Source: Mugil cephalus (lineage: Eukaryota > Chordata > Actinopteri > Mugiliformes > Mugilidae). Taken from it: DNA of 64,000 nt. The stretch lies in assembly GCF_022458985.1 (NCBI RefSeq), contig NC_061781.1, positions 23,974,001 to 24,038,000 of the forward strand, in the 5' to 3' direction. Every line of letters starts with the position of its first letter. Within the stretch, counting starts at the first letter, position 1. Of the stretch, positions 15,736 through 57,837 are shown in pieces. A program made the position numbers and the translations under genes. The notes beneath the pieces are model-generated. The model had not been told where the DNA came from. It saw only the letters and a list, made by a program, of their open reading frames with translations, and did no database searches.

Positions 15736-16103
15736 AAACCAACTGTGGTATATTTCATACAGAAGGATAAGAATGGTTTCCCCTTTTTGCATATCACCTA
15801 ATACATCTACATTTGGGTATTTTGCTGCAATGATTTCGTATTGTAGGTTATAAAAGATGTTAATGCAGTGGAAGTGAAACCTCCCTCATTATGAAAGTGC
15901 TAGAGGGACATTGTGGTTATGCGTTTTCACAGTTAATAAAGTATGTAAAGGTGACCTGTTTGCTATCATTTCATTATTTTCAGCCTGAGGAGGAGAGAGC
16001 ACCACTGACATCTGAAACAAGGACAAAGAAGATCATACAGCTGGAGGAGCCTTCAACTATTTAACCTTAACTTGTAGATACTGGATCATCCTTGAGCACA
16101 GAA

Positions 16104-17423
16104 ATGACTCAACTTACTCAAAAACTTCTTGACCTAGTAAAAACCACTGTGACTACATTTGTGGTCATAGTCCTCTTCATCATCCTGCAGCGTGTTTTTG
16201 ACATGCATTTTGTCTGTACTTGCAAAGAACGCCTCCACCTGAACGGTGTACTCTACATGATTCTTCCTCCTCTAATCCTCGCCTTCGTTGTCAACATCAT
16301 CGAACCTTTTCACGAAATAAAGGTTGCCTCCAGCTTGTCGTGTTTTTCCTGTAGGGGCGCCAAGAAATGCTACTGCACCTACTTTTTGAATTGGATTGTC
16401 AAGTACATCGATCTGAGTGCTGTATGGATAGCTGTGGTTCTGTTTGATGGAGACTGGTACTTCTGCGTGAAGACAAAGTTCGACATATCTCAGATTGAGC
16501 TGCCCTGCAAACAAAACTTGACCTACAAGGAGCAACGCATCAAAGACAAATATATGACAGACTCACTTGTAAGTAAAGACAAAACCATTAAACTGTTTGG
16601 GAAATTAAATAGTTAATAGTAATTTATGCTCAGAAATAAAATCATTGCTAAATTTTGCATCATGTTTATATAGAAAAATCACAAACAACGCTAAGACAAA
16701 AACAACTTGATTTGTTGAGTTTTCTTGAAGATCTTTCATCTATGTGGTGTCTTCTGTTCTAAATGACCTGAGTGGAGTTTAGCTGTTTATAGGAACATCT
16801 AATTACTACGTCTCAGATTCACTGAACTCTTTCTTAAAATCCTCTAAAATCTCAACTGGTCATTAAAGGAGACCTTTGGTCTTGGGGGCCCCTTGGCTGT
16901 GGAACCCGCTCTTTGAAATTTCTTGAGACTCTTAAGAATAAGTTTTGTTTATGTGATTTGTGTTGCATCTGTTTTAAATTCTAACTAATAAACTTATAAT
17001 TATGTATTATATATTTTTCTTCTCCAGGACTATGGCCTCTACGTACTCTGTGGCTTTCTATGTCTCTGGAGCATCGCTGAAATTAGGAAAACTTATTTCC
17101 ATGTCAGATGTCCTTTCTTCATGGATACGAAAAGTTGTTGTGTGCGGTGTATAAGATGTGAATACCATGATCCTTACTACAATGTGATCTATGATGAACT
17201 CCTGGCACAGCAAGTCAGCAGCCATTTGAACGATGAGCTAAAACTGATAGCAACGGATAAAGCAAGAAAAATGTGTGAGCCCTACCTTAACAAAATCAAA
17301 AGTCATGAACTGTCAGGAAATTATGAGAATCACTGTGGCGACAAAACAGTTTCTGAAGTCTGGAAGAAAATCTCAGCCTCTGATTTCTACTTGAATGAAG
17401 ATGAGACAAGAAACTCAACATAA
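16104..17423 (+). CDS. CALHM-family channel protein, copy 1 (CALHM5/6-like)
   Basis: Two coding exons, 16104-16568 and 17028-17423 (donor cttGTAAGT, acceptor tctccAG), give 286 aa. Start is the ATG of MTQLTQ; 12 bases of open frame upstream hold no ATG. CALHM traits are a first helix at about residues 14-32, the extracellular CxC (C38, C40) after it, a second helix containing LPPLILAF, a third ending in DGDWYFC (C121), then C135; these four cysteines are the family's two disulfides. NLT at 138 is a glycosylation site. Exon 2 starts with the fourth helix (YGLYVLCGFLCLW) and a long Cys-rich cytoplasmic tail. CALHMs form large-pore channels; CALHM6 acts in innate immune cells. The 5' leader has a spliced exon starting cctgaggaggag at about 15984. 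The lectin gene lies tail to tail downstream. Confidence 0.82.
16690..16880. repeat. Interspersed repeat in CALHM copy 1 intron
   Basis: The block contains ttgagttttcttgaagatc and gtgtcttctgttctaaatgac, shared with 24860-24940, 33810-33890 and about 5010-5090. The three CALHM intron copies are inherited with the tandem unit; the 5 kb copy shows the element is also dispersed. Confidence 0.6.
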
Positions 17424-17639
17424 AACTCAACACTTTGTATTCAAGTTTAATATATTACACTTGAAATATTTGAAAGATCCTGTAATATGTGTAATCTAAA
17501 AGAAAAAATGTAACATTTTAAAGGTAAAACCTGTGCAGTGTTTTTATGTTTAGTTTAACTCAACTGCTCAGAAAAAAGGACTGTAAACAAATACGTAAGC
17601 CATTATGTTGATATTTCCTATGTCAGTTTATTTAATTTC

Positions 17640-18240
17640 AATAAATAAAGTATTAATGAATGAATGAATGAATGAATGAATGGTACAATTGTTTTATTGA
17701 GTGGCATTGGAACCAAAACTTTAACCACATGAAACTCCTGGATAATTCTCTGACCGCTGCAGACAGACGATTGATTCGAATCACAACAGCACCACCTGAT
17801 GGTATTACAAAGTAATATATATATTACCAAACGTAGACAGAAGAAAAGTAAACAAAACCACTTTATTTACACTTACAAAGTCTGGAACAAGAAGCGCTGC
17901 AGCCTGCAGGGTTTCGCAAAAAAAAATAAAAATAGAAACTAGATGAAACTCAAAGGGAACTAGGGACAATTTCAATGAAGGTAACAACATACACCAAACT
18001 AATCAGACAACAGAAAGGCAGGACTTTAGATATAGAGAGAGGAACACATTGAGAAACCAATCACAATCGGAGGGAAAACACAGACAGGAAGTGAAGCAGG
18101 ACATGAAACACCAACAAAAGAGCTTTACAAAATAAAAACAGGAACAAAGAACAACGAAGCAGGGTTTTTGTGGTGCTTTTGGTGTACAGTGATAATACGA
18201 TAAACTGTTGGATCTAGATGCATGTACAGTAAATATGCTA
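17640..18240. other. Spacer between CALHM copy 1 and lectin copy 1
   Basis: It holds aataaa motifs near 17640 on the plus strand (likely CALHM polyadenylation), a gaat tetranucleotide repeat at about 17655-17683, and sequence repeated in the other two units (cacagacaggaagtgaagcag near 18085). No coding exon was seen. Confidence 0.6.
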
Positions 18241-18245
18241 CACGC

Positions 18246-20490
18246 CTAAGCCATTTTCTCACAGATCCATCTCAGAGAGGCATCACATGACCAGTCGTTC
18301 CAGTTTTCCTCTGTGCTCCTGCCACTTTTGATATACGCACAGTCTTCTTTATCCCACTGTGGAAACTCGCCACCGTTATCAGGCTGCCCCGTCTCCCAGA
18401 ACCTGACAGGTCAAAGAGTGAGATAACTGTGAAACCATTAGTCTCGAATATGAATATGAACCACAGAAACTTTTTGCTGTTTTCTTTTCTGGGAGCTTTG
18501 TAGTGTAGTTTTGTGACTCATCCACAAAGTTACAATATATCCCACAGCAGCATCCAAAGACCTGCAGGCCTCACTTGGCTCAGTTAAAGTCAGTGTTCAT
18601 GACTCCACCGTAAGAAAGAGGATGGGCTAAAATGGCCTGAGCACAAACTAAACAGGTTACACAGAACAAATGCAACGCAGGTTCATGGAATGATACTTTA
18701 AATATAAATGACCCATTTGAATCCATTGCATCGCAGTGTTTGAAAGAGGAACTTTGGCACGATACAATCTACACTGATCTCAAGAGGGGTTAAAATGGGT
18801 TCCTGTATGAAACATGCAAGAGGCAGTTGACATCTCTCAGAAATTTTGACACCCTCTGGTTTGTTTACTCTGAAAAGTGCTGCTGAACATGTGTGAGCGA
18901 GCTGAATAAATTGTCACTATGTGAATGGTGACATTAACTGCATCTTTTAAAATGAGTAGCTTACTCTGCGGAAGCATGTACAGCTAGGTTTACATAACAA
19001 CATATTAGTAAGTAAGTCAGTAGTAAAAAATTAAAGGAGCTCATCAATGTAACAAAGTGGGTGAGATTTCATTTATTTTCCATCCGATTTGCAGATTTGA
19101 ACAAAAAAAGTTGTTGTATTTGGCTCCAAACCTTAGATTCAGTGAAGTTCCATCCATCCATTTCCAGGTTCCCTCAGTTTCTCTTTTGGTCAAACCAATC
19201 CAACTCCATGTTTCCACTTTGGTGAAGTTGCAGAAGAACCTCTGTTTAGATATCAAAGTTTAACGAACAACATCGTGCATTCAATTAACAAAATCTTATT
19301 CTAACACGAAGGAAGGAATCTATACTTTGTAAACGCAGTGTACCTGTTCTTCAGCGTCGTTCACAACAACGAGATCTGCTTCCCTGTCTCTTCTGCTAGC
19401 TTCGTCACGAACCAAGTATGCAAGGATGTACAGATCTTAACGCTCCATCCTCAGCACATTTCGTCTCTTTGCTCCCATCTGGCTTTGTGAGTCTTATCAG
19501 TCACGAGGCTTACTTCAGACAGAAACTAATTGGAAGCTGAATTGCTGATTAGATAACCAGGATTAAAAAAAAAATTAAACCAAGCATTAGTGAATAAACC
19601 ATAATCACTTTTAGGGTAGACTGAGGGTTTCGCTACTATACTTTGTCTCCGAATAACATGACTGTTGTTGAGCTCTATTAGTCTGTTCACCCGAACAGGC
19701 TGGAGTTCAATGACAGAAAGCTGATTTCGTGGAAGCCTGAAGTGCTAGTTAGTAATAACCTGAAGATTAAAAAAAAAAAAAAACACGTAAGATTGAGGCG
19801 TGAAATATTCCATGAAATTCATTTTAGGATTAGAGTCTGAAGGGGTTCCGACACGTATATCGCTACCAGTGAAAAACTATTTAGATGTCATCTATCACTT
19901 ATCTGTAGCACCCTCCAGAACAAGAGAGCAAGAAATTCACAGCCATGTAGCTACACGCATGAGTGCATTGCGTTGACTGTGAGTGGAGCAACATGTATGC
20001 AGTAAAAACTGAGAATAAAAAAAGTTTGTCCTCTCCTTAGTTGCAACCTGAACTTCAGACCAACCAAAGGTAAGACATCTTTAAAAGGTCCCAGATATAA
20101 CAGTTTACAATTGAGTTCAACGGATATTGTAAAAGGTCATATTTACAGAGATATTACTTTTATGCTGATTATGTATGTATTATATTTTTTTAAAAAGGTA
20201 CGTTGAACCAGACTCACATGTTTGACAAACCGAGGCCGATGAGTCCCAGCAACCAGGAAAACGCTCAACAGCCAAACAATTCACAACTCCATGTAACGGC
20301 ATCTCTGCTTCCTGATCCAAAGAATACATTTTAAATGCAGTAAATGATAGATAAAAACGGTAATAATCCAAATCTCCACAAGATGATAAGTGTCAATTTA
20401 ATCAAATCCCCAACCTGTCTGACTCTTAAAACGAAGTTTGGAGACGCAGATTCATTAGGGCCGTTCAACTTTCTCATAGATTCCCTCCAT
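18246..20490 (-). pseudogene. C-type lectin receptor copy 1: intact 3' exons, indel-riddled 5' half
   Basis: The last two exons are intact: 19241-19132 (WSWIGLTKRETEGTWKW) and 18402-18246 (FWETGQPDNGGE, then WNDWSC and the end CEKMA). They match copies 2 and 3 closely. The region for exons 1-3 (20490 back to about 19350) is recognisable but broken by many one- to few-base insertions and deletions. Exon 1 starts MEGIYEKVERP and then runs into a stop, and exon 3 is scrambled over about 19350-19770. Flanks on both sides are clean. Either this is a real pseudogene or the patch at 19.4-20.86 kb is unpolished sequence, in which case the gene may be functional. Confidence 0.75.
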
Positions 20491-20869
20491 CTTGTTAAAG
20501 TGACCAACTCAAAGTCAGCTCTGCAGCATAAATTACTCACAAACATTTGTACAGTGAAGAGTCACATGTCAAGTAGTTGAAAGCTATCTTGGTTCATAAT
20601 CACACCATACAGGAAAAATGTGCATGTTACATTTGATCTTGACTATAGACTACCCAAGTTATTTACTTACTAAGTCTTTTGATGACGACCTAAAAAGTTA
20701 GTTTCAAACTTCAATAATTTCAAACACTGTTCAGGTGCACGTTATTCACTCAAAGCTCAAACTAGATAGCTTTTAATCTAATTTGTTTGCCTTTATGTCT
20801 TCTTAATTCCATCCTTGGTATTTATAAATATTGAGAAAAAGTTCAAAGATAAGTTTTACTTCCACTAAC

Positions 20870-21510
20870 TCAACACTGTTAGAATCTGCGTTAGTTAATT
20901 CTTCAAAAAATATGACTGAGACTGCTTCTTGATATCTATAAAACATTTATTGAGACATAGAAAATAATTCATGTAGCTACACGGTCCATCCTTGGTCCAC
21001 CTAAGCTTTCCAAAGAGAGAAAGAAGTTTCCAACATTCCAAAGTGTTGCATCCAAAACTACAGAATGATTGGGATTGGTCGCCTATAGTTTAGGAGGAGT
21101 CCTCCCTTGATGAATCAGCTGGTTGCACCGCCCCATCTTCTGTTTTCTCCAATCACGAGACGGCATCTGTAGACTACAAGTAAAAAGAGAGAGTGGAGGG
21201 AAGGGGACTGGGCGGTGATGGGGCTCCGGCAAGTGTGTCAAAGGGTGGTTTGATCACCTGACCAGTGACGTTTGAAGCAGTTCAAGTGATTCGAACTCAC
21301 TCCAGTGATTCAGTTGATTCCTACAAACCACTTAGTGGCCTACCAGGTGGTTCGAAACACTTCCCTTCCTCTCCCAGGAAGGTCGAGCCTGAGGAGGGCT
21401 GGACTGGGCTTTAATGTGTTGTCTTGTCGTTGACTGCTCAGTGTAATTTTAATTGCCCCTTGGGATAAATAAAGTTATTTGAATTCAACTGAATTAAAAG
21501 CACAAGCACA
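20870..21510 (+). repeat. Interspersed repeat block, copy 1
   Basis: A block nearly identical to 29700-30360, ending in ccccttgggataaataaag followed by gaattcaactgaatt, a LINE/SINE-like 3' tail. No coding capacity is seen. It is one of the TEs carried along in the tandem duplication. Only its first 100 bases or so recur in unit 3 (38460-38560). Confidence 0.5.
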
Positions 21511-21639
21511 CTGTTTCAATACATGGATTGAAACAAATCAGGATAATCACTAATTGAATCTTCAACACTTGATTCGAGAAACAGTTCATTACTAGATGCT
21601 TCAATGACACAGTGCTCCACAAGAGGACAATAATATAGA

Positions 21640-23265
21640 CTTAGACTTGGACAGACGTTAATGATCCACAAGGGAAATTAATTGACATAGTAGCTCAATT
21701 GACACAAAAAGATGAGCCGTTATACAGGTGGATAGAATACGGAATAAAGAAGTTCTGTAGCGTTCACTATGGCAGCGGAGCTGAATCATTCTGCTGGAGA
21801 ATGAGCTCCTCTGACCCTCTAATGTTTGGCGTAGTAGATGGGATGGATTTTCCATAATGGAGAGCAGTTTATCCAATGTCCTCCTGTCCCTCACTGAGAC
21901 AAATGACTCCAACTCCCTACAGATCACTTGTCCAGCCTTTTGGATCAATTGGTCGATCCTACTAATGTCTTTTTTGCTGGTGCTACTCCCCCAACAAACC
22001 ACAGCAAATAGCAGGGCACTCGCAACAACAGACTGGTAGAAAGACATTAGTAACTCACTGCACACACTGAAAGACCTGAGCTTCCTAAGAAAATAAAGTC
22101 TACTCAGGCCCTTCTTGTACATAGCATCACTGTTGTCCCTCCGGTCCAATCTGTTGTTCATGTAGACTCCCAGGTACTTGTAGTGGTCCACTAGTTCCAC
22201 CTCCAGGGCCTGGATGGTGATGGGCTCCACTGGTGTCCTCTTCCTCCTGAAGTCAATGACCAGCTCCTTGGTCTTGTCCACGTTCAGGAGTAGGTGGTTG
22301 CCCGGGACCACTCCACATAATCCACGATCAGTGTCCTATACTCCACCTCTTGTCCATCACTGATACACCCAACCACTGCAGAGTCATCAGAGAACTTCTG
22401 CAAAAATTTTTTTTATTCTCAGTTTTTACTGCAACATGTTGCTCACACTCACAGTCACACGCAAGATCATTGCTGTAGCTACATGGCTGTGAATTTCTTG
22501 CAGGACCCAGAGCTGTATTGGAAATCAGAGGTGTAAAGAGTGAACAGGAAAGGAGATAAGATGGTCCCCTGTGGGTGCCCAGCATCTGACAGGGACCAGC
22601 CCCCGAGCCGTACAAACTGAGTCCTGATGGACAAGTAATCAGCAAATCAAAGAACATGATCCTCACAGTACCCTTCCCACCATCCAGGTGCGAGTGAGCC
22701 CCATTGCAGCAGGTAGATAACAGCATCATCCACACCAGCAAAAGGCTGATACGCAAACTGAAGAGGGTCGAAGACAGGGGCCACCAGGGGTCTACTACAG
22801 GCCACCTATAGATATGCTTTGCTTGACTTTCTCCGGCTCTGTTCTCACCTGGCCAGGTGTCACAGTCATACGAATGGTTTCTTCAGTGGGGAACGGAATT
22901 GGAAGGTGGAGAAGATTGGCAGTAAGGGGTCAATGGTGAGTAGTGAATTGGCCATCTGGGGGGGTGTAAGGACAGGAGTGGTGGGGCGAGAAGAGCCAGC
23001 AGGAGGTCCAGCACTGAATCTATTAAAAAATACATTCAGTTCATTAGCTCTATCTGCTGCTTGGCTCTGGTATTACAGCCAGTGATGAGCTCCACACGTC
23101 CCTGGGGTTGTTTTGCTGGAGCTTGGCCTCCAGCTTCCTCCTGTAGGTGTCCTTACACTCCTTCACTTTGACTTTGAGTTGCCCCTGTATCCTCTTGGAA
23201 TGCAGTGTGTCTTCTATTGGTTCATACTTGTATGGGAGTTGCTTTTCCATACACAATCCTGTTCG
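21640..23265 (-). mobile_element. LINE (CR1/L2/Rex type) reverse transcriptase fragment, copy 1
   Basis: The minus strand holds a truncated non-LTR element. Near 23150 is VKECKDTYRRKLEAKLQQNN (a linker typical of this family), near 22700-22400 broken reverse transcriptase, and from 22311 to 21658 a long open stretch with NHLLLNVDKTKELVIDFRRK, YKYLGVYMNNRLD and FYQSVVASALLFAVVCWG, ending in the 3' tail at about 21640-21670 (ttaatgatccacaagggaaa on the plus strand). It has internal deletions and a foreign 99-base insert at 22402-22500. A near-identical copy is at 30505-32055. Confidence 0.8.
22402..22500 (-). other. Inverted insert of lectin intron sequence inside the LINE
   Basis: These 99 bases interrupt the LINE between ttctgca and gcaggaccc; the sister LINE at about 31240 has only a few bases there. 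Reverse-complemented, the insert matches lectin copy 1 intron sequence at about 19929-20024 (caagaaattcacagccatg through to cagtaaaaactgagaataaa). It shares copy 1-specific bases (aagaaattc; aaaaactgag) rather than those of copies 2 and 3. Confidence 0.75.
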
Positions 23266-23289
23266 ACTGCACTAAATGACTATGTGGTT

Positions 23290-23410
23290 TAAAGCTATTA
23301 TAAATAAAATATATAACATAAATAAGAGTTTTCCATGGGAATCAAACCCGTGCCTCATTTTCACAAGGCCGTAGTGCTTCCAATATACGAGATACCCCAA
23401 ACAGGTTTGC
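23290..23410 (-). mobile_element. tRNA-like SINE head
   Basis: On the minus strand the segment has a tRNA shape: ggggtatctcgtatattgg, then a B-box-like gggtttgattccc followed by catgg. Similar copies are at about 32085-32200, 37860-37970 and 38690-38805. Multiple dispersed copies with variable anticodon regions point to a tRNA-derived SINE and not a working tRNA gene. Confidence 0.5.
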
Positions 23411-23499
23411 AGTGTTGTTTTTTTGACACTTAAAATAATAACAATAAAATTTTTATTGAATATCATGTGTCTATGTTTTTATTTACACTTATATTGTGT

Positions 23500-23935
23500 T
23501 ATGAAACACTCAAATGGTGCTGCTACATTTACATTGACCATGTCCATCCCTTTATGACCACAGTGGACCATCTTCTGACGGCTGCTTCCAGCAGGATAAT
23601 GCACCATGTCACAAAGCTCATATCATCTCAAACTGGTTTCTGGAACATGACAATGAGTTCACTGTACTCCAACGGCCTCCACAGTCACCAGATCTCAATC
23701 CAATATTTCACCTTTGGGATGTGGTGGAACGGGAGATTCTCATCATAGATGTTTAGCCGTCAAATCTGAAGCAACTGTGTGATGTTATCATGTTAGTATG
23801 GACCAAAATCTCTGAGGAATGTTTCCAACACCTTGTTGAAAGTATGACACCAAGAATTAAGGCAGTTCTGAAGGCAAAGAGGGTCCAACCTTTTATTAGC
23901 AAAGTGTACCTGATAAAGTGGCCGGTGAGTGTATA
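23500..23935 (+). mobile_element. Tc1-like transposase 3' fragment, copy 1
   Basis: Broken frames give HVHPFMTTV, QDNAPCHK-like, NWFLEHDNEF-like, QWPPQSPDLNP-like, then IWTKISEECFQHLVESM and RIKAVLKAK, which is the C-terminal DDE half of a Tc1-family transposase. The terminal inverted repeat is gtgtacctgataaagtggcc at about 23904. It is 5'-truncated and inactive. The family matches the fragment at 4085. Confidence 0.8.
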
Positions 23936-24408
23936 TACATTTAGGTATTTTGCTGCAATGATTTTGTTTTGTAGGTTAGATGAGAGGTTGATGTCAATAT
24001 GTTCTGTGCATTAATCATAGAGGGCCAGGAGGCAGCTATCATAGATTAGATTAAACTGATTAGGGTTAAGTGTATCTGACAAAATTTCAAACTGTTCCTT
24101 TAATATTGTACCTGCACAAAAGTGAAAGAAAAATGTGGTCTTGCAGCTTTATGTTCCTTTATGTTTTCTATGAGAAGTGAAACCTCTCTCATAATGAAAG
24201 TGCCAGAGTTAATAAAGTATGTAAAGGTGACCCGTTTGCTATCATTTCATTATTTCCAGCCTGAGGAGGAGAGAGCACCACTGACACCTGAAACAAGGAC
24301 AAAGGAGATCATACGGCTGGAGAAGCCTTCAATATTTCAATCCTTCAAGCCTTCAAGCCTTTAATTTAACCTTAACTTGTAGATATTGGATCATCGTTAA
24401 GCGCAAAA

Positions 24409-25085
24409 ATGACTCCAACTCCTCAAGTTAGTCAACGACTAACTTTCACTTTCACTTTCACTTTCACGAAATAAAGGTTGCCTCCAGCTTGTCGTGTTTT
24501 TCCTGTAAGGGCGCCAAGAAATGCTACTGCACCTACTTTTTCAAGTGGATTGTCAAGTACATTGGTCTGAGCGCTGTATGGACCGCTGTGGTTCTGTTTG
24601 ATGGAGACTGGTACTTCTGCGTGAAGACAAAGTTCGACATATCTCAGATTAAGCTGCCCTGCAAAAAAAACCTGACCTACGTGGAGCAACGCATCAAATA
24701 CAAATATATGATAGAGTCACTTGTAAGTAAAGACAAAACCACCACATTAAATTAAAAAGTTAATTTATGTTCAGAAAAAAAATCATTGCTAAATGTGATA
24801 TTACACATATATAGAACAATGGTGTAACACAAACAACGCTAAGATAAAAACAACTTGAGTTGTTGAGTTTTCTTGAAAATGTTTAATCCAAGTGGTGTCT
24901 TCTGCTCTAAATGATTGGATTAGAGTTTAGCTGTTAATTAGAAACATCTAATTACTACGTCTCAGACACCGTCAGCCCCCTTTTTTAAAGTTGATTTTTT
25001 ATTTTTCTTCTCCAGGACTATGGCCTCTACGTTTCTGAAGTCTGGGAGAAAATCTCAGCCTCTGATTTCTACAAGATGAGACAAG
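24409..25085 (+). pseudogene. CALHM-family pseudogene, copy 2
   Basis: The ATG and first codons (MTPTPQVSQR) match copy 3. The rest of the N-terminal third, including the CxC motif and first two helices, is then missing and replaced by a short tandem of ctttca units (about 24443-24466). Coding similarity resumes at the segment encoding KVASSLSCFSC and continues intact through DGDWYFC to the normal donor at about 24722. Exon 2 (from 25016) keeps only DYGLYV before a second large deletion that joins it to the segment near the C-terminus, followed by a further small deletion. The product cannot be a channel. The two deletions have clean ends, and the remaining sequence is very similar to copies 1 and 3. 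Confidence 0.85.
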
Positions 25086-25435
25086 AAACTCAACACTTTT
25101 TATTCATGTTTAATATATTACAGTTGAAATATTTGAAAGATCCTGTAATATATGTAATCTAAATGAAAAAAATCTAAATTTTTTAAGGTAAAACCTGTGC
25201 ATGTTTTTATGTTATAAGCCATTATGCTGATATTTACTATGTCAGTTTATTTAGTTTCCATAAATAAAGTATGAATGAATAAATAAATAAATGGTACAAT
25301 TGTTTCATTGAGTGGCATTAGAACCAAAACTTTAACCACATGAATCTCCTGTACTATTTAACCACTGCAGACAGACTTGATTTAAAGCACAACAGCACCA
25401 CCTGATGGTATTGTAATATATATATATATATATAT

Positions 25436-25477
<42 letters not shown>

Positions 25478-25755
25478 CATCTTTTAGCTTACACATATTA
25501 CAGGATCTGTCAAATATATTTCAACTGTAATATAAGTTTCTTGTCTCATCTTCCTTCAAGTAGAAATCAGAGGTTGAAATTCTCTCCCAAAATATATAGT
25601 CTCCCAAATATATATATAATAAAAGCATCAGGTGGTGCTTTTGTGCTTTAAATCAATCGATATATCGACAGGAAGTGAAGCAAATATATATAGCACAACA
25701 GCACCACCTGATGGTATTATAATATACATACGTGTGTGTGTATGTGTGTGTATGT

Positions 25756-25824
<69 letters not shown>

Positions 25825-26331
25825 TGTGTTGAAAAGGAGATTCTGCACTTTGAACCCACATTAAATATGTAAGTGTTGTTGAGTTGTGGGCTGATGAGGA
25901 CAAAAGACCCAAACACAGACAGAAGAAAAGTGAATATAAAACACTTTATTTAAACTTACAAAGCCTGGAACAAGAAGCACTGCAGCCTGTAGGGTTTGCA
26001 AAAAAAAAAATAAATTAAATAGAAACTAGATGAAACTCAAAGGGAACTAGGGTTAATTTCGATGAAGGTAACAACATACACCAAACTAATCAGACAACAG
26101 AAAGACAGGACTATAGATATAGAGAGAGGAACACATTGAGAAACCAATCACAATCGGAGGGAAAACACAGACAGGAAGTGAAGCAGGACATGAAACACCA
26201 ACAAAAGAGTTTTACAAAATAAAAACAGGAACAAAGAAGAAAGAAGCAGGGTTTTTGTGGTGTTTTGGTTTACAGTGATAATATGATAAACTGTTGGATC
26301 TAAATGCATGTACAGTAAATATGCTACACGC
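25086..26331. other. Spacer between CALHM pseudogene and lectin copy 2, rearranged
   Basis: It contains a (ga)n run at about 25437-25475, a long (tg)n run at about 25733-25830, and a mosaic of short inverted and direct copies of nearby sequence at 25377-25725. The remainder (25830-26331) matches the spacers of units 1 and 3. Confidence 0.65.
25475..25595 (-). other. Inverted fragment of a CALHM 3' end
   Basis: Reverse-complemented, this stretch matches the end of CALHM exon 2 and its 3' flank (as at 34310-34450), with about 45 bases missing in the middle. It carries ttgacagatcc, the variant found in copy 3, where copies 1 and 2 have ttgaaagatcc. It is not an independent gene. Confidence 0.75.
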
Positions 26332-29215: not shown

Positions 29216-29699
29216 CTTTGTTAAAGTGACCAACTACAAAGTCAGCTCTGCAGCATAAATTACTCACAACCTTTGTCAGGAAGTCACATGTCAGTATGAG
29301 AGCTATTTGGTCATAACCACACAGGAAAATGTGGTAATACATTTGTTTGACTATAAAACCCAAGTTATTTTACTTCTAAGTCCTCATTAATGAGACCTAA
29401 AAATGTTTCAAACTTTGAAATAATTTCAAACTTTTCAGGGCTGTCGTTCTACTAAAGCCTCAAACAAGTTTACATCTAATTTGTTTCACATCCCCCTTCC
29501 TCCTCTTTTTTACAAACTCACACCTGTCCATCCTGTGGTGGGGGGAGCTGCCTAATGCTGGTCTAAGGCCTGGTTCATAGTAAAAACAATCTGCTGAAGA
29601 GGAGTGCATTATTTTTCTGAGTCATCTTGATTTATTTAAAGCAGTAGGCTACTTAGTTTCCATCTTTATTTATAAATATGTGAGAAAAAGGGGCAGAGA

Positions 29700-30360
29700 T
29701 AAGTTTTACTTCCACTAACTCAACACTGTTAGAATCTGCGTTAGTTAATTCTTCAAAAAATATGACTGAGACTGCTTCTTGATATCTATAAATCATTTAG
29801 TGAGACATAGAAAATAATTCATGTAGCTACATGGTCCATCCTTGGTCCACCTAAGCTTTCCAAAGAGGACAAAGTTTCCAACATTCCAAAGTGTTGCATC
29901 CAAAACTACAGAATGATTGTGATTGGTCGCCTATAGTTGAGGAGGAGTCCTCCCTTGATGAATCAGCTGTTTGCACCGCCCCTTCTTCTGTTTTCTCCAA
30001 TCACGAGACGGCATCTGTAGACTACAAGTAAAAAGAGAGAGTGGAGGGAAGGGGACTGAGCGGTGATGGGGCTCCAGCAAGTGTGTCAAAGGGTGGTTTG
30101 ATCACCTGACCAGTGACGTTTGAAGCAGTTCAAGTGATTCGAACTCACTCCAGTGATTCAGTTGATTCCTACAAACCACTTAGTGGCCTACCAGGTGGTT
30201 CGAAACACTTTTAAACCTTCCCTTCCTCTCCCAGGAAGGTCGAGCCTGAGGAGGGCTGGACTGGGCTTTAATGTGTTGTCTTGTCTTTGACTGCTCGGTG
30301 TACTTTTAATTGCCCCTTGGGATAAATAAAGTTATTTGAATTCAACTGAATTAAAAGCAC
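29700..30360 (+). repeat. Interspersed repeat block, copy 2
   Basis: Near-identical to 20870-21510, with the same gaattcaactgaatt tail. Small differences include a few extra bases in the middle. It belongs to tandem unit 2. Confidence 0.5.
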
Positions 30361-30504
30361 CAGCACACTGTTTCAATACATGGATTGAAACAAATCAGGA
30401 TAATCACTAATTGAATCTTCAACACTTGATTTAAGAAACGGTTCATTACTAGAGGCTTCAATGACACAGTGCTCCACCAGAGGACAATAATATAGACTTA
30501 GACT

Positions 30505-32055
30505 TGGACAGACTTTAATGATCCACAGGGGAAACAAATTGACTTAGTAGCTCAATTGATACAAAAAGATGAGCCGTTATACAGATGGATAGAATACGGA
30601 ATAAAGAAGTTCTGTAGTGTTCACTATGGCAGCGGAGCTGAATCATTCTGCTGGAGAATGAGCTCCTCTGACCCTCTAATGTTTGGCGTAGTAGATGGGA
30701 TGGATTTTCCATAATGGAGAGCAGTTCATCCAATGTCCTCCTGTCCCTCACTGAGACAAATGACTCCAACTCCCTACAGATCACTTGTCCAGCCAGTTTG
30801 TCGATCCTACTGATGTCTTTTTTGCTGGTGCTACTCCCCCAACAAACCACAGCAAAGAACAGGGCACTCGCAACAACAGACTGGTAGAAAGACTCTAGTA
30901 ATTTACTACACACACTGAAAGACCTGAGCTTCCTGAGAAAATAAAGTCTACTCAGGCCCTTCTAGTCCATCACTGTTGTCCCTCCGGTCCAATCTGTTGC
31001 TCATGTAGACTCCCAGGTACTTGTAGTGGTCCGCTAGTTCCACCTCCAGGCCCTGGATGGTGATGGGCTCCACTGGTGTCCTCTTCCTCCTGAAGTCAAT
31101 GACCAACTCCTCGGTCTTGTCCGCGTTCAGGAGTAGGTGGTTTGCCCGGGACCACTCCACCAAATCCACGATCAGTGTCCTATATTCCACCTCCTGTCCA
31201 TCACTGATACACCCAACCACTGCAGAGTCATCAGAGAACTTCTGCAGGTGGCAGGACCCAGAGCTGTATTGGAAATCAGAGGTGTAAACGCAAAGTGAAC
31301 AGGAAAGGAGATAAGATGGTCCCATGTGGGTGCCCAGCATCTGATAGGTTCCACCCCCCCGAGCCATACAAACTGAGGCCTGACGGACAAGTAATCAGCA
31401 AATCAAAGAACAAGATCCTCACAGTGCCCTTCCCACCATCAAGGTGAGAGTGAGCCCGCTGCAGCAGGTAGATAACAGCATCATCCACACCAGCAAAAGG
31501 CTGATACGCAAACTGAAGAGGGATGAAGACAGGGGCCACCAGGGGTCTCAGGCTGAGTCTCTCCAGGACGGAAGGTCAGGGGTTTACACAGTCCGGACCT
31601 ATAGATATGCTTTGCTTGACTTTCTCCGGCTGTGCTCTCACCTGGCCAGGTGTCACAGTCATACGAATGGTTTTGTTCAGTGGGGATGGGAATTGGAAGG
31701 TGGAGAAGATTGGTAGTAAGGGGTCAATGGTGAGTAGTGAATTGGCCATCTGGGGGGGTGTAAGGACAGGAGTGGTGGGACGAGAAGAGCCAGCAGGAGG
31801 TCCAGCACTGAATCTATTAAAAAATACAATCAGTTCATTAGCTCTATCTGCTGCTTGGCTCTGGTATTACAGCCGGTGATGAGCTCCACATGTCCCTGCT
31901 GTTGTTTTGCTGGACCTTGGCTTCCAGCTTCCTCCTGTAGGTGTCCTTACACTCATTTACTTTGACTTTGAGTTGCCCCTGTATCCTCTTGGAATGCAGT
32001 GTGTCTTCTATTGGTTCATACTTGTATGGGAGTTGCTTTTCCATACACAATCCTG
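30505..32055 (-). mobile_element. LINE (CR1/L2/Rex type) reverse transcriptase fragment, copy 2
   Basis: This is the duplicated partner of 21640-23265, with NHLLLNADKTEELVIDFRRK, YKYLGVYMSNRLD, FYQSVVASALFFAVVCWG and, further 5', FAYQPFAGVDDAVIYLLQRA followed by a reverse transcriptase core. It lacks the 99-base insert of copy 1 and has its own short deletions. It is not intact. Confidence 0.8.
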
Positions 32056-32084
32056 TTTGACTGCACTAAATGACTATGTGGTTT

Positions 32085-32200
32085 AAAGCTATTATAAATA
32101 AATATATAACATAAATAAGAATTTTCCATGGGAATCAAACCCGTGCCTCATTTTCACAAGGCCGTAGTGCTTCCAATATAGGAGATACCCCATACAGGTT
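32085..32200 (-). mobile_element. tRNA-like SINE head, unit 2
   Basis: Same element as 23290-23410, with the B-box-like gggtttgattccc on the minus strand and flanked by the same LINE and Tc1 pieces. A T run of about 18 follows at 32210-32225. Confidence 0.5.
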
Positions 32201-32274
32201 TGCAGTGTTTTTTTTTTTTTTTTTTGACACTTAAAATAACAACAATAAAATATTTATTGAATATCATCTGTCTA

Positions 32275-32745
32275 TGTTTTTTTATTTAGACGTATATTGT
32301 GTTATGAAACATTTAAATGGTGCTGCTACATTTACATTGACCATGTCCATCCCTTTATGACCACAGTGGACCATCTTCTGACGGCTGCTTCCAGCAGGAT
32401 AATGCACCATGTCACAAAGCTCATATCATCTCAAACTAGTTTCTGGAAGCTGACAATGAGTTCACTGTACTCCAACGGCCTCCACGGTCACCAGATCTCA
32501 ATCCAATAGATAGAGGAAGCTTTGAGATGTGGTGGAACGGGAGATTCTCATCATAGCTGTGCAGCCGACAAATCTGCAGCAACCGTGTGATGCCATCATG
32601 TCAATATGGACCAAAACCTCTGAGGAATGTTTCCAACACCTTGTTGAAAGTATGACACCAAGAATTAAGGCAGCTCTGAAGGCAAAAGGGCGACCAACCT
32701 TCTACTAGAAAGGGGTACCTAATAAAATGTCCAGTGAGTGTATAT
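32275..32745 (+). mobile_element. Tc1-like transposase 3' fragment, copy 2
   Basis: Duplicate of 23500-23935. It is read in broken frames as HVHPFMTTV, then TSEECFQHLVESM-like and IKAALKAK-like, and ends with the inverted repeat ggtacctaataaaatgtcca at about 32715. Inactive. Confidence 0.78.
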
Positions 32746-33201
32746 ACATTTAGGTATTTTGCTGCAATGATTTTGTTTTGTAGGTTAGATGAGAGGTTGA
32801 TGTCAATATGTTCTGTGCATTAATCATAGAGAGCCAGGAGGCAGCTATAATAGATTATATTAAACTGATTAGGGTTAAGGTTAGGGTTAAGTGTATCTGA
32901 CAAATTTTTCAAACTATTCTTTTAATATTGTACCTGCACAAAAGTGAAAGAAAAATGTGGTCTTGCAGCTTTATGTTCCTTTATGTTTTCTATGAGAAGT
33001 GAAACCTCTCTCATAATGAAAGTGCCAGGGTTAATAAAGTATGTAAAGGTGACCTGTTTGCTATCATTTCATTATTTCCAGCCTGAGGAGGAGAGAGCAC
33101 CACTGACATCTGAAACAAGGACAAAGGAGATCATACGGCTGGAGGAGCCTTCAACTATTTAACCTTAACTTGTAGATATTGGATCATCGTTAAGCGCAAA
33201 A

Positions 33202-34372
33202 ATGACTCCAACTCCTCAAGTTAGTCAACGATTTTTTGAACTAGTAAAAAATGCTGTGACTACATTTGTGGTCATAGTCCTCTTCTTCATCCTGCAGCGT
33301 GTTTTTGACATGCATTTTGTCTGTTCATGCAAAGAAGGCCTCCACCCGAACGGTGTACTCTTCTTGATTCTCCCTCCTCTAATCCTCGCCCTCGTTGTCA
33401 ACATCACCGAACCTTTTCACAAAATAAAGGTTGCCTCCAGCTTGTCGTGTTTTTCCTGCAAGGGCGCCAAGAAATGCTACTGCACCTACTTTTTCAAGTG
33501 GATTGTCAAGTACATCGGTCTGAGCGCTGTATGGATAGCTGTGGTTCTGTTTGATGGAGACTGGTACTTCTGCCTGAGGACAAACTTCAACACCTCTCAG
33601 ATTGGGCTGCCCTGCAAAAAAAACCTGACCTACGTGGAACAACGCATCAAAGACAAATATATGACAGACTCACTTGTAAGTAAAGACAAAACCACAACAT
33701 TAAATTAAAAAGTTAATTTATGTTCAGAAATAAAATCATTGCTTAATGTGATATTACACATATATAGAACAATGGTGTATCACAAACAACGCTAAGACAA
33801 AAACAACTTGAGTTGTTGAATTTTCTTGAAAATGTTTAATCCAAGTGGTGTCTTCTGCTCTAAATGACTGGATTAGAGTTTAGCTGTTAATTAGAAACAT
33901 CTAATTACTATGTCTCAGACACCGTCAGACCCATTTTCAAAGTTGATTTTTAATTTTTCTTCTCCAGGACTATGGCCTCTACGTACTCTGTGGCTTTCTA
34001 TGTCTCTGGAGCATAGCTGAAATTAGGAAAGCCTATTTCCATTTCATGCCATGCAGATGTCCTTTCTTCATGGATACGAAAAGTTGTTGTGTGCGGTGTA
34101 TAAGATGTGAATACCATGATCCTTACTACAGTGTGATCTATGATGAACTCCTGGCACAGCAAGTCAGCAGCCATTTGAACGATGAGCTAAAACTGATAGC
34201 GACGGATAAAGCAAGAAAAATGTGTGAGCCCTACCTTAACAAAATCAAAAGTCATGAACTGTCAGGAAATTATGAGAATCACTGTGGTGACAAAACAGTT
34301 TCTGAAGTCTGGGAGAAAATCTCAACCTCTGATTTCTACTTGAAGGAAGATGAGACAAGAAACTTAACTTAA
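33202..34372 (+). CDS. CALHM-family channel protein, copy 3 (CALHM5/6-like)
   Basis: Two coding exons, 33202-33675 and 33968-34372, give 292 aa (human CALHM6 is about 315). Start MTPTPQVSQRF. The extracellular CxC falls at residues 41 and 43, the same positions as in human CALHM1; the partner cysteines are at 124 (DGDWYFC) and 138 (LPCKKNLT, also a glycosylation sequon). The cytosolic loop SLSCFSCKGAKKCYC and the tail (MPCRCPFF, KSCCVRCIRC) are strikingly Cys-rich. Exon 2 is 9 bases longer than copy 1 (FMPC region). The 5' leader again has an acceptor before cctgaggaggag (about 33081) and a short leader frame ending EEPSTI-stop before the real ATG. The lectin gene lies tail to tail at 35262. 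Confidence 0.84.
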
Positions 34373-34907
34373 TGGAAAACTCAACACTTTGTATTCAAGT
34401 TTAATATATTACAGTTGAAATATATTTGACAGATCCTGTAATATGTGTAATGTAAAAGAAAAAAATGTAACATTTTAAAGGTAAAACCTGTGCAGTGTTT
34501 TTATGTTTAGTTTAACTCAACTGCTCAGAAAAAAGGACTGTAAACAAATACTTAAGCCATTATGTTGATATTTACTATGTCAGTTTATTGAATTGCAATA
34601 AATAAAGTATGAATCAATACATGAATAAATGATACAATTGTTTCATTGAGTGGCATTGGAACCAAAACTTTAACCACATGAAACTCCTGGACAAGTGTTT
34701 GACCGCTGATATGTATTGCGGCTGATATATATATATACATATAGGAGATTCTGCACTTTGAACCCACATTAACTATGTAAGTGTTGTTGAGTTCTGGTCT
34801 GGTGAGGACGAAGGACCCAAACACAGACGGAAGAAAAGTGAATAAAAAACACTTTATTTACACTTACAAAGTCTGGAACAAGAAGTGCTGCAGCCTGCAG
34901 GGTTTGC

Positions 34908-34937
<30 letters not shown>
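34908..34937. repeat. Poly-A run
   Basis: About 29 A's in the spacer between CALHM copy 3 and lectin copy 3. Units 1 and 2 have shorter A runs at the matching place (17919, 25999), so this is a length-variable microsatellite. Confidence 0.8.
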
Positions 34938-34939
<2 letters not shown>

Positions 34940-35261
34940 GAAACTAGATGAAACTCAAAGGGAACTGGAGACAATTTCAATAAAGGTAACAACATACACC
35001 AAACTAATCAGACAACGGAAAGACAGGACTATATACACACACAGGTGAAACTAAGGAGAGAGGAACACATTGAGAAACCAATCACAATCGGAGGGAAAAC
35101 ACAGACAGGAAGTGAAGCAGGACATGAAACACCAACAAAAGAGCTTTACAAAATACAGGAACAAAGAACAAGGAAGCAGGGGTTTTGTGGTTCTTTGGTG
35201 TGCAGTGACAAGACGATAAATTGTTGGATCTAAATGCATGTACAGTAAATATGCTACACAC

Positions 35262-37620
35262 CTAAAGCATTTTCTCACAGATCCATCTCATAGAGGCATC
35301 ACATGACCAGTCGTTCCAGTTTTCCTCTGTGCTCCTGCCACTTTTGATATACGCACAGTCTTCTTTATCCCACTGTGGAAACTTGCCACCGTTATCAGGC
35401 TGCCCCGTCTCCCAGAACCTGACAGGTCAAAGAGTGAGATAACTGTGAAACCATTAGTCTCAAATATGAATATGAACCACAGAAACTTTTTGCTGTTTTC
35501 TTTTCTGGGAGCTTTGTAATAAGTTTGTAACCTGCTTCTGTTTCAGCATCTGCAGTACTCACCGCAAAGTATCGAAACAAATTAGCCAATCATCAAATGA
35601 ACACAAGACCCTGAGCTCTTCCCTCCGCAGAGCATAGACTGTATATAAATATGGACAACACGTCCTCACTTCCTTTCATTGACCAAACTGATGCTATCTT
35701 CCTCTGGATATTTTCCATTTTTTTCAAGTTTGCAGTCAGTATGGTCAGAGATGGGGGCCTCACCAAGTTGCGATCTCAATGACCCACCAATAAATCAAAA
35801 CATGAATATGCACCAGTTTTTGCAGTTCCCTCCAAAAGTATTGGAACAGCAAAGCAAATTCCCTTGTTTTTGTTGTTTACTGAAGACATTTGGGTTTAAG
35901 ATCAAAAGATGAGTATGAGACAAGAGTTCAGAATGTCAGCTTTTATTTCCTGGTATTTACATCTAGATGTGTTAAACAGCTTAGGATATATCACCGTTTG
36001 TATTTGTAACAAAAACAAAGGAATTTGCCTTGCTGTTCCAATACTTTTGGAGGGAGCTGTATATTAACTACCTAAAACGACAGAAGTCATCCTTGAAAAG
36101 AAATATTTGATATGTATTTTAGTGATTTAGTTTTGCCCCCTCTGCTAACATGGAGAAGGTGGAGCTTACGACCTATACTGCAGCCTCCAACCACCAGGGG
36201 GAGCTCTACTTACTTTGACTTCACTATTGAGGAGCAGTTCCACCATCCATATTAATATTAATACTCTCTATGGTGCACACGACTTAAAGTCCTGATATAT
36301 GTGGACAAGTGAAATAAGAGTTTCCGTCTTCCTGATTTCTTATTTTCTTGCATGTCTGTCACACATAAATGTTTCAGATCATCAAATTTAAATACTACTC
36401 ACAAATAACAGAGTAAACACAAAATGAAGTAGGCCAAAAGAGCCTCAAAAGCTTTATGTCATCCTGAAATCCAAAGATATTCATGAACAAATTAGAAATA
36501 ATTGAGATCTATGAGTCTGGAAGAGGGTATAAACCCCAGCGAACCACAGCAAGAGACATTATCCACAAATGGTGAAAAAGTAAAAAATTAAAGGAGCTCA
36601 TCAAAGTACCAAAGTGGGTAAGATTTCATTTATTTTCCATCCGATTTGCAGTAAATGAACAAAAAAAGTTGTTGTATTTGGCTCCAAACCTTAGATTCAG
36701 TGAAGTTCCATCCATCCATTTCCAGGTTCCCTCAGTTTCTCTTTTGGTCAAACCAATCCAACTCCATGTTTCCACTTTGGTGAAGTTGCAGAAGAACCTC
36801 TGTTTAGATATCATAGTTTATTGAACAACATTGTGCATTCAATTAACAAAATCTTATTCTAACATGTGGGAAGGAATCTATACTTTGTAAACGCAGTGTA
36901 CCTGTTCTTCAGCGTCGTTCACAACAACGAGATCTGCTTCCCTGTCTATGCAGTCTTGTCTAGCTTCTGTCCACGAACCTAAGTCGATGGAGAGGATGTA
37001 ACAGGAGTCTTTAAACCGCTTCCATCCTTCAGGGCAACATTTCACTCTCTTTGCCTCCCGAATCTGGACTTTGTTGAGCTCTTTAGTCAGTTCACCGAGG
37101 CTGGAGTTCATGACAGAAAGCTGATTTGTGGAAGCCTGAAGTTGCTCAGTTAGGTAATAACCTGAAGATTAAAAAAAAAAACACATAAGATTGAGGCGTG
37201 AAATAAATTCCATGAAATTCAACTTTTATGATTTAGAGTCTGAAGGGGTGTCCGACACGTAGTATCGCGTACCAGTGAAAAACTGATTTAGATGTCAGTC
37301 TATCACTTATCTGTAGCACCTCCAGAACAAAGAGCAAGACATTCACAGCCATGTAGCTACAGCAATGATGTTGACTCACAGTTGACACCGAGGCCGATGA
37401 GTCCAGCAACCAGGAAAACGCTCAACAGCCCCAGACAGATCACAACTCCATGAAGGCATCTCGTTCCTTTAAATGCAGTAAATGATACGATAAAAAGGTA
37501 ATAATCCAAATCTCCACAGAGATAAGTGTCAGATCTAATCAAATCCCCACCTGTCTGACTCGTTGAAGGTTTGTAGACGGCAGATTTAGGGCGTTCAACA
37601 TCCTCACAGATTCCCTCCAT
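35262..37620 (-). CDS. Type II C-type lectin receptor, copy 3 (CD209/NK-lectin-like)
   Basis: Exons 37620-37551, 37466-37380, 37161-36902, 36799-36690 and 35418-35262 join in frame to give 227 aa. The tail starts MEGICEDVERP; the tyrosine of copies 1 and 2 is Cys here. A membrane helix (HGVVICLGLLSVFLVAGL) is followed by a neck with spaced leucines (LTEQLQASTNQLSVMNSSL) that could coil, then the CTLD: CCPEGWKRF, CYILS, QDCIDRE, WSWIGLTKRE, FWETGQPDNGGE, WNDWSC and the end CEKML. QPD and WND suggest calcium-dependent galactose-type binding. Exon 2's normal acceptor (ttggtcag in copy 2) is deleted, leaving only ttaaag. Intron 1 (84 bases) is open in frame, so retention would add 28 residues. 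Intron 4 holds a MITE and a Tc1 remnant. Confidence 0.78.
35823..36059. mobile_element. Tc1/mariner-type MITE
   Basis: Left end cagttccctccaaaagtatt and right end (reverse complement) cagctccctccaaaagtatt continue to match for about 50 bases inward (ggaacagcaa, gcaaattcc, ttgtttttgtt). Length is about 237 bases. A TA follows the right end; the left flank reads TG. It lies in intron 4 of lectin copy 3 only. Confidence 0.8.
36420..36575 (+). mobile_element. Tc1-like transposase fragment
   Basis: The stretch tctggaagagggtataaa, ccccagcgaaccacagcaag and gacattatccacaaatgg is the helix-turn-helix region of another Tc1-like family. It ends abruptly where the lectin intron sequence shared with other copies resumes (about 36575). 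Confidence 0.5.
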
Positions 37621-37734
37621 CTCTGTTAAAGTGACCAACTGCAAAGTCAGCTCCGCAGCATAAATTACTCACAACCTTTGACAGGAAGTCACATGTCAAA
37701 GAGCGTGATAGCTATTTGGTTATAATCACACAAG

Positions 37735-39200
37735 AAAAAGTGGTATTTTCCTTCCTTCAATGACTATAATAATATGGAGCAATGTGTCTTTTATTGGTTC
37801 GTTTTCCCACTTGTATGGGGCTTGATTTTCCATCCACTGCACTAAATGACTATGTGGTTTAAAGCTTTTATAAATAAAATATAACAGAAATAAGAGTTTT
37901 CCATGGGAATCGAACCTATGCCTCATTATCACAAGACCATAGTCCTTCCAATATACGAGATACCCCATACAGGTTCGCAATAATAATGATATATTTATTG
38001 ACTTTCATGTTTCTATGTTTTATTTACACTTAAACTGAAGCACTGAAATGGTGCTGCATTTGAATGCGCAGGGGCGCACATACACTGTATGTATGTGTTA
38101 ACGCTTCTAAGGCCCGGGGCGAGCGCAATGATGAGTCAAAAATGATGAGAGGAAACATATACAGGCAGATTTTTCAACAGAAGAAGACTACTGGGAACAT
38201 AACAGGAAAGCGGAGAAATCTGCTGTCGCCAAGATAAAGAGCGAAGAAAGTTTAACCTATCTGCAGCATAAATTACTCACAACCTTTGTCAGGAAGTGAC
38301 ATATCAAAGAGCGTGAAAGGTATTTGGTTATAATCACACAGGAAAATGTGTTATTTTCCTCCCTAATGCTGGTCCAAGGCCTAGTTCATAGCACGAACAA
38401 TCTACTGTAAAGAAGTGCATTATTTTATCACCAACTCATTTTCCAACGGTTAATCTGTGTTCATTAATTCTTTAAAAGAAGATGACTGAGACTGCTTCTT
38501 ACTATCTATAAAACATTTATTGAGACATAGAAAATAATTCATGTAGCTACACAGAAGAAACGGTTCATTACTGGAGGCTTCAGTGACTATAATAATATGG
38601 AGCAATGTGTCTTTTATTGGTCCGTTTTCCCACTTGTATGGGGCTTGATTTTCCATCCACTGCACTAAATGACTATGTGGTTTAAAGCTTTTATAAATAA
38701 AATATAACAGAAATAAGAGTTTTCCATGGGAATCGAACCTATGCCTCATTATCACAAGACCATAGTCCTTCCAATGTACGAGATACCCCAAACAGGTTTG
38801 CAGTGTTTCTTGACACACAAAATAATAATAATAAATTTATTGAATATCATGTTTCTATGTTTTATTTACACTTAAACTGAAACATTGAAATGGTGCTGCG
38901 TCGATTTAATTACGTAACTAATTTATCTATTTCTCTCTTAACACTGTATGTATGTATTAACGCTTCTAAGGCCCGGCGCGAGCGCAATGATGAGTCGAAA
39001 ATGATGAGTCGAAAAATATACAGGCAGATTTTTCAACAGAAGAAGACTGGAACATAACAACAGAGGCGGAGAAATCATGCGAGCTTCCCACCCACTTCAC
39101 GTCCCTGCTCTTATGCAAGACTGACACAGAAAATACGTGGATAGAAACTGCTGTCGACAAGAAAAAGAGCGAAGAAAGTTTAACCACCAAAAATGCAAAC
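37735..39200. repeat. Locally duplicated block with tRNA-like SINE
   Basis: 37735-37985 and 38585-38805 are near-identical (actataataatatggagcaa onward, including the tRNA-like head with gaatcgaacct). 38090-38270 and 38945-39190 are also related (acgcttctaaggcccgg, acaggcagatttttcaacag). Together they form an imperfect tandem pair of about 850 bases. Between them, 38275-38585 is lectin 5' flank sequence. No coding function seen. Confidence 0.65.
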
Positions 39201-57335: not shown

Positions 57336-57366
<31 letters not shown>

Positions 57367-57600
57367 CTAGCCTGTTACATCAGTTTGACACGTCTTTCTG
57401 ATTGCTGAGGGAAAACGTAAGAACATCCCATGAGTCCATCTCACTGTGGCCACTGGGTCATAATTAGGTGCTTGAGAAGTGGCTGCAGTGCGGCCATTCC
57501 CCCGAGGCCTGGACTGTTTACGACACTGTCGAGCTCACATGGGAGGACACGGTAGAGGACACTAATGACACTCATTACAGTATTGTTACATCAGACTTTT
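57236..57600 (+). repeat. Duplicated conserved block, copy 1
   Basis: Shares gcttcatttagctactagtt, gattgctgagggaaaacgta, gtgcttgagaagtggctgca and cacggtagaggacactaatg with 59827-60150. The core 57385-57575 is much better conserved than its edges. It contains a taa trinucleotide run at about 57339-57367 that copy 2 lacks. Coding potential in the shared frame (EKWLQCGHSP, WEDTVEDTNDTHYS) is unproven. Confidence 0.65.
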
Positions 57601-57837
57601 ACTTTAATTTATACATCTCAATATTATGGGCACTAAACTTTGAGTGTGGCCTTGAAAAATGTGAAATGTCTGTTTGTCTTAAACTACTAAATCAGGCCGA
57701 GTTACCCAGCAATGAAGTCCTCGATAAGGGAAAGAATAAAGGACCAGCTGCCACGCTAAACTTTGTGAACTTTAGGAGTGTTTTGGAGAGATATGAAACC
57801 TGCATGAAGGACGACCATCTCAGCACTAGAAGCTAGA

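Follow-up and report, generated by a model that had tools for sequence, protein, structure and literature searches.

Why should a channel gene of the CALHM family and a C-type lectin receptor gene lie side by side several times over at one locus of a fish genome, and does their adjacency reflect joint use? This question is raised by a stretch of 64,000 nucleotides of Mugil cephalus DNA (NC_061781.1, positions 23,974,001 to 24,038,000), hereafter the window, which lies at C12:23974001-24038000 of the searched genome (634.8 Mb, 24 contigs). An earlier note on the same DNA had described three units with the two genes tail to tail, and had suggested that repeated co-amplification keeps the pair together, either by chance or for joint use at immune contacts. 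In the present study we propose, with a probability of roughly 0.7, that a tandem-copied segment of 8-9 kb carried the two genes as passengers and that its copies subsequently underwent birth-and-death evolution.

Three copies of one segment

Comparison of the window with itself by blastn, together with repeat finding, revealed three head-to-tail copies of one segment (units A, B and C; Table 1), spaced ~8.1-9.1 kb apart, with a piecewise identity of 74-96%, far above chance. Every unit holds a two-exon CALHM-type gene on the forward strand, or its remains, convergent with a C-type lectin gene on the reverse strand, tail to tail. Candidate polyadenylation signals, chosen among several AATAAA/ATTAAA motifs in the intergenic gap, lie ~220 bp apart in unit A and ~255 bp apart in unit C, a spacing that would fit two complete convergent transcription units. 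Thus, the claim that both genes lie inside one duplicated unit was borne out by these comparisons. Since the units are copies of one segment, they represent one association and not three.

The contents of the units have diverged. Both genes are open in unit C only, one of the three units; in unit B the lectin gene is open and the channel gene is destroyed; in unit A the CALHM gene is open and exons 1-3 of the lectin gene are unreadable. The three tandem convergent copies described earlier are therefore present, and a readable pair in every unit is not. With one segment to be counted once, and with the channel already broken in unit B so that both partners are not kept in every copy, the idea that co-amplification holds the pair together was not sustained.

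CALHM-A and CALHM-C read openly as proteins of 286 and 292 amino acids, with consensus splice sites in both. In CALHM-B, the start is present and TTTCAC-type repeats (~24441-24467) stand in place of most of the coding sequence for the membrane spans S1 and S2; the remainder of exon 1 (24468-24722) is intact, and exon 2 is deleted after ~25030, leaving only its first and last few codons. In the alignment to unit C, these lesions are clean deletions. Units A and B also share a spacer resembling a long interspersed nuclear element (LINE) at ~90-95% identity (94.7% in the self-comparison by blastn). This spacer carries a match to the Pfam model ALKBH8_N, which we take to be a marker of the open reading frames of fish LINEs. 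It is absent from unit C, in which the residual spacer is partly doubled (37755-38220 and 38578-39076).

The unreadable part of lectin-A was also considered as a true pseudogene, and this interpretation was withdrawn after the indel profile of the region had been measured. Compared with unit B, the patch shows 89 short indels and 37 substitutions per 873 aligned bases, and compared with unit C, 39 indels and 13 substitutions (446 bases) and 30 and 14 (349 bases); the clean flanks show 2 indels and 31 substitutions (789 bases) and 7 and 50 (1487 bases). Short indels within the patch number ~10 per 100 aligned bases, its edges are sharp, and exons 4 and 5 of lectin-A fall outside it. Natural divergence seldom yields more indels than substitutions, and for this reason the patch is probably an uncorrected long-read consensus. 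A noisy assembly patch of this kind can mimic a pseudogene and would mislead a pseudogene call at 19330-20850.

History of the units and selection

Different blocks of the segment connect different pairs of units. For the block of the CALHM intron the closest pair is B-C (36 informative sites versus 5 and 3), for the CALHM 3' block it is A-C (15 versus 10 and 6), and for the 3' flank of the lectin gene it is A-B (13 versus 7 and 2), which is also the pair that shares the spacer absent from unit C. These distances exclude the first block of unit A, part of which falls outside the duplicated segment, and the region 35.5-36.6 kb of unit C, which is unrelated to units A and B. Such a mosaic is what unequal exchange or conversion among the copies would produce, and as a consequence no single tree dates the pair.

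Rates of substitution were estimated with the NG86 method, each from a single pair of copies. For the CALHM genes of units A and C, the nonsynonymous rate (dN) is 0.059 and the synonymous rate (dS) 0.081, a ratio of 0.73 (0.99 for exon 1 and 0.37 for exon 2); for the lectin genes of units B and C, the values are 0.052 and 0.056, a ratio of 0.93. Fisher tests on rounded counts gave P values of 0.29 for the whole CALHM gene, 0.14 for CALHM exon 2 and 0.82 for the lectin gene, from which it follows that neutrality is not departed from in any of the three.

Type of the lectin

Lectin-C and lectin-B are open, with GT-AG junctions, and encode 227 and 208 amino acids, the stalk of lectin-B being 19 codons shorter. 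Their matches to the Pfam model Lectin_C reach 71.6 bits for lectin-C and 72.6 bits for lectin-B (cut-off 22.6). The proteins run from a short tail through one membrane span and a stalk to a C-type lectin domain that is encoded by three exons; the single hydrophobic stretch at residues 23-58, identified by hydropathy, is consistent with a type II single-pass layout. Both open copies, lectin-B and lectin-C, carry the motifs QPD and WND, as does exon 5 of lectin-A. QPD or EPN together with WND are the calcium- and sugar-site motifs of C-type lectins, and QPD points to galactose-type sugars. Because both QPD and WND are present, calcium-dependent binding of galactose-type sugars is expected, and the product would be a single-pass type II receptor for such sugars.

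The earlier note had compared these lectins with receptors of both the natural killer (NK) and CD209 types. The CD209-type layout was confirmed by the type II topology, the Lectin_C domain and the two motifs; the order of tail, span, stalk and lectin domain and the QPD...WND arrangement are shared with the group II receptors of the CD209/ASGR/CLEC4 type. The window lectin differs from that type in its tail, in which no immunoreceptor tyrosine-based inhibitory or activating motif (ITIM or ITAM) was found by eye, in its span, in which inspection by eye likewise found no charged residue, and in the shortened stalk of copy B. With the NK-type (group V) receptors, it shares the type II layout. To our knowledge, however, group V receptors lack the calcium-site motifs, and the NK-type assignment was rejected by this rule, since QPD and WND are kept. 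In a search of the PDB with the lectin, the highest summed scores belonged to multi-domain receptors (LY75 and others), and the best single-domain relatives include CLEC4E (4zrw), DC-SIGNR (1sl6) and CLEC10A (6py1). A construct of NKG2-D was also among the matches (2.8e-22, two stretches), ranked below CLEC4E and DC-SIGNR.

Identity of the channel

CALHM-A and CALHM-C match the Pfam model Ca_hom_mod (PF14798) with 38.2 and 36.9 bits (cut-off 25), and the match is confined to the N-terminal half of the proteins. On a simple hydropathy scale, CALHM-C shows four stretches (10-43, 46-73, 97-125 and 157-175), which would fit S1-S4; the third was merged from three overlapping hydrophobic stretches. 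When CALHM-C alone was compared with the PDB, most matches were antibody chains with chance-level scores, and CALHM4 was retrieved at 0.046. A profile of the two window proteins and two proteins encoded on contig C1 retrieved CALHM5 (4.5e-7), CALHM2 (1.2e-5), CALHM6 (1e-4) and CALHM4 (1.4e-4). The CALHM5/6-like gene of this genome lies on C11, with 3e-84 to human CALHM6 and 7e-77 to CALHM5. In a tree of eight rows with one long branch, built from complete models (the genes of C5 and C13 and the broken fourth gene of C1 were omitted), the window proteins group with those of C1 in a single clade (95/95), separate from C11, C2 and C3. By this tree, the window channels belong with the C1 genes to a divergent CALHM clade.

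The two families named in the earlier note, CALHM and C-type lectin, hold at the level of the superfamily, and the assignments to CALHM6 and to NK-type receptors do not. Orthology of the window genes to CALHM6 was ruled out by the ranking of the profile matches, by the match of the C11 gene to CALHM6 and by the tree. In mouse, CALHM6 is expressed in immune cells and recruited to immune contacts, according to PMC10068325; the description of CALHM6 as an innate immune channel agrees with that statement for the mouse, and its transfer to the clade in the window does not follow. With the channels of the CALHM4/5/6 type (human CALHM6, PDB 6ytv; CALHM5, 7d60), the window genes share two coding exons, the number also found in the modelled C11 gene, and hydrophobic stretches fitting four spans. 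They differ from that type in an identity of 15-18% to the C11 protein and in a C-terminal half without a match to the Pfam model.

Thirteen CALHM-wide conserved positions have been reported, of which the nine named in the text of PMC13183375 were used, and the residue calls are our reading of the eight-row alignment against those positions. In CALHM2 numbering, seven of the nine (F44, C46, C48, P64, W117, C130 and C162) are unchanged in CALHM-A as well as CALHM-C; I61 is replaced by leucine, as it is in the fish genes of C2 and C11. The tyrosine of S2 (Y56 in CALHM2, Y51 in CALHM6) is asparagine in both CALHM-A and CALHM-C (residue 50 of CALHM-C); it is tyrosine in C1 gamma, C11 and C2 and falls in a gap in C1 alpha and beta. 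Two disulphide pairs, C46-C130 and C48-C162, are conserved in CALHM (PMC13183375). The cysteines C41, C43, C124 and C138 are invariant in four sequences, namely the two window proteins and C1 beta and gamma; in C1 alpha, outside this set, tyrosine replaces the first disulphide cysteine (the C46 position), and the F44 position is valine in C1 alpha and gamma. Since the FxCxC and loop cysteines, the S2 proline and the S3 tryptophan are kept, the window subunits may form a large pore of the CALHM type. Replacement of the S2 tyrosine by alanine is reported to abolish the activation of CALHM1 and to render CALHM6 voltage-dependent (PMC13183375). Because asparagine occupies this position, an altered gate is predicted for the window proteins, and the pore would be gated differently. 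The window channels, with the CALHM scaffold kept and asparagine in S2, together with their C1 relatives, one of them with tyrosine, provide a natural test of CALHM gating, whichever explanation of the pairing holds.

CALHM genes and lectins elsewhere in the genome

Matches to CALHM-C in the genome numbered seven, five in the window and two on C1, and the PF14798 family gave 14 match rows, on C1, C2, C3, C5, C11, C12 and C13. The region C1:26299000-26358800 contains three CALHM genes (26309178-26310986, 26321474-26322421 and 26325420-26326320), open once two open reading frames have been joined in each, as well as a frame-broken CALHM gene (26341152-26341602) and a scrap. Between the third gene and the broken one, on the same strand, lie two stretches coding for C-type lectin-like domains (26329785-26333015), which were taken as one lectin gene. 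This cluster (26.31-26.34 Mb) resembles the window in that channels of the same divergent clade have a C-type lectin gene among them. It differs from the window in orientation, the lectin gene being head-to-tail with the CALHM genes, and in its channels, which are 23-27% identical to those of the window and of which gamma keeps the S2 tyrosine. Because both stretches carry EPN and one exon holds the whole of the second, the C1 lectin is, by its motifs and exon structure, not of the window type.

A tblastn search with three lectin queries (E up to 0.1) found no lectin at the five remaining CALHM loci within stretches of unequal length (46.9 kb on C11, 28 kb on C2, 29.9 kb on C3, 29.9 kb on C13 and 9 kb on C5); the same queries found none in the ~20 kb that flank the window at each end. 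A lectin is therefore nearby at both loci of the divergent clade (2/2) and at none of the other CALHM loci (0/5). The question arose from the window locus itself, which leaves C1 as the sole independent test (1/1). The co-location on C1 is suggestive, and mildly in favour of the pairing.

Explanations for the pairing

The course of events that we consider most probable may be described as follows. One segment of 8-9 kb would have happened to hold a fast-evolving CALHM-type gene and a CD209/ASGR-like lectin gene, tail to tail. This segment would then have been copied in tandem, most likely through unequal crossing-over, and later exchange of sequence among the copies might have produced the mosaic. 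Birth-and-death evolution would account for the outcome, in which two channels are open and one is destroyed, and two lectins are open and one is unreadable; the channel and the lectin need not work together. Several results weigh against this explanation. Unequal crossing-over is inferred from its own product, the tandem copies. The intron of unit A is rich in indels relative to unit C, with 15 that are short, beside 17 substitutions, in 200 aligned bases, and poor sequence in unit A may contribute part of the B-C signal in the intron. In a rough simulation, frames were kept better than under neutrality (P 0.003 for CALHM and 0.016 for the lectin), mainly through the indel rate that we chose; with stops only and no assumed indels, the same simulation gave P values of 0.17 and 0.21. 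Retention of the open frames by selection is therefore likely but not firm. Moreover, the one further locus found for the divergent CALHM clade also harbours a lectin gene, which would be rare for chance passengers.

The last two results, together with unit C, in which both genes are open, and with the five other CALHM loci, whose searched stretches held no lectin, are also what speaks for a functional module, in which, for example, the lectin would gather a contact, the channel would release a signal such as ATP and selection would hold the two genes adjacent. We regard such a module as improbable. It is opposed by the single association that underlies the three copies, by the destroyed channel of unit B, by the absence of CALHM6 orthology and by the C1 lectin, which is of another type, with two domain stretches and EPN, and lies head-to-tail. 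The functional interpretation presupposes an orthology that is wrong and counts a single event three times; the C1 cluster keeps a small chance for it. Equally doubtful is the broader version, in which a divergent CALHM clade, its window members having an altered gating residue, is lodged among lectins on both C12 and C1 and channel and lectin would serve as a recognise-and-release contact module under birth-and-death evolution, as in other immune receptors. Slightly less probable still is an origin in a receptor-rich, fast-rearranging immune neighbourhood, in which the expansion of several families would bring channel and lectin together with no specific tie between them; two B7/butyrophilin-like immunoglobulin genes upstream and an olfactory receptor gene downstream would suit it, whereas a MAGUK-type gene with weak L27 and guanylate kinase matches stands in between, and such a neighbourhood overlaps with the passenger account rather than excluding it. 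The consensus failure in unit A raises the further suspicion that some of the units were duplicated falsely, as when haplotypes are assembled one after the other. The units, however, show ~2-10% substitutions even in clean blocks, and large indels, the spacer missing from unit C and separate lesions distinguish them further, which in our judgement exceeds what is expected of two haplotypes; false duplication is unlikely, and the least probable of these alternatives.

If the pairing in the window is indeed hitch-hiking, it is a caution that tandem copies of a segment count as one observation. If it is functional, it would tie the recognition of sugars to a large-pore channel at the immune contacts of a non-mammalian animal. 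In agreement with the earlier note, no description of a CALHM-lectin pairing was found among the listed open-access papers of PubMed Central (PMC), subscription journals being outside the scope of that search.

Features of the window

The coordinates of the units and of their genes are collected in Table 1.

Table 1. Features of the tandem array (window positions).
Feature	Position	Strand	Remarks
Tandem unit A	15928..24203		Edges approximate; window self-blastn, left edge from A-C alignment
Tandem unit B	24204..33029		Edges approximate; window self-blastn
Tandem unit C	33030..39076		Edges approximate; shorter, without LINE-like spacer; window self-blastn
CALHM-A exon 1	16104..16568	+	N-terminal helix to second extracellular loop
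CALHM-A exon 2	17028..17423, stop included	+	S4 and C-terminal part
CALHM-B remnant	24409..25100	+	Alignment to unit C; tblastn
Inverted duplicate of end of CALHM exon 2, unit B	25533..25589	-	Self-blastn; tblastn
CALHM-C exon 1	33202..33675	+	
CALHM-C exon 2	33968..34372, stop included	+	
Lectin-A	18246..20490	-	Exons 5 (18246-18402) and 4 (19132-19241) clean
Lectin-A exons 3, 2 and 1	~19344-19556, ~20222-20305, 20415-20490	-	Many short indels
Indel-noise patch, unit A	19330..20850		Probable assembly error
Lectin-B	26332..29215	-	Exons 29146-29215, 28953-29039, 28378-28580, 27564-27673, 26332-26488
Lectin-C exon 1	37551..37620	-	Cytoplasmic tail
Lectin-C exon 2	37380..37466	-	Membrane span; hydropathy
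Lectin-C exon 3	36902..37161	-	Stalk and first part of C-type lectin domain
Lectin-C exon 4	36690..36799	-	Middle of lectin domain
Lectin-C exon 5	35262..35418	-	End of lectin domain, with QPD and WND
Retroelement-like (LINE-type) coding fragment, unit A spacer	21658..22335	-	Open reading frames; Pfam ALKBH8_N match
LINE-type fragment, unit B copy	30515-31394		Identity of the A and B spacers

Several other features were observed around the array. The two B7/butyrophilin-like genes upstream (2658-3569 and 9315-10278, reverse strand) have V-set and C2-set_3 domains and are duplicates of each other, with exons 87-91% identical. On the reverse strand, 41563-52765 contains pieces of the possible MAGUK-type gene, whose L27 and guanylate kinase matches are below the Pfam cut-offs. 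A direct repeat of 260 bases (57351-57610 and 59901-60160, 91% identical) is unrelated to the array. The olfactory receptor gene is an open single-exon gene on the forward strand (62336-63334; 7tm_4, 120 bits).

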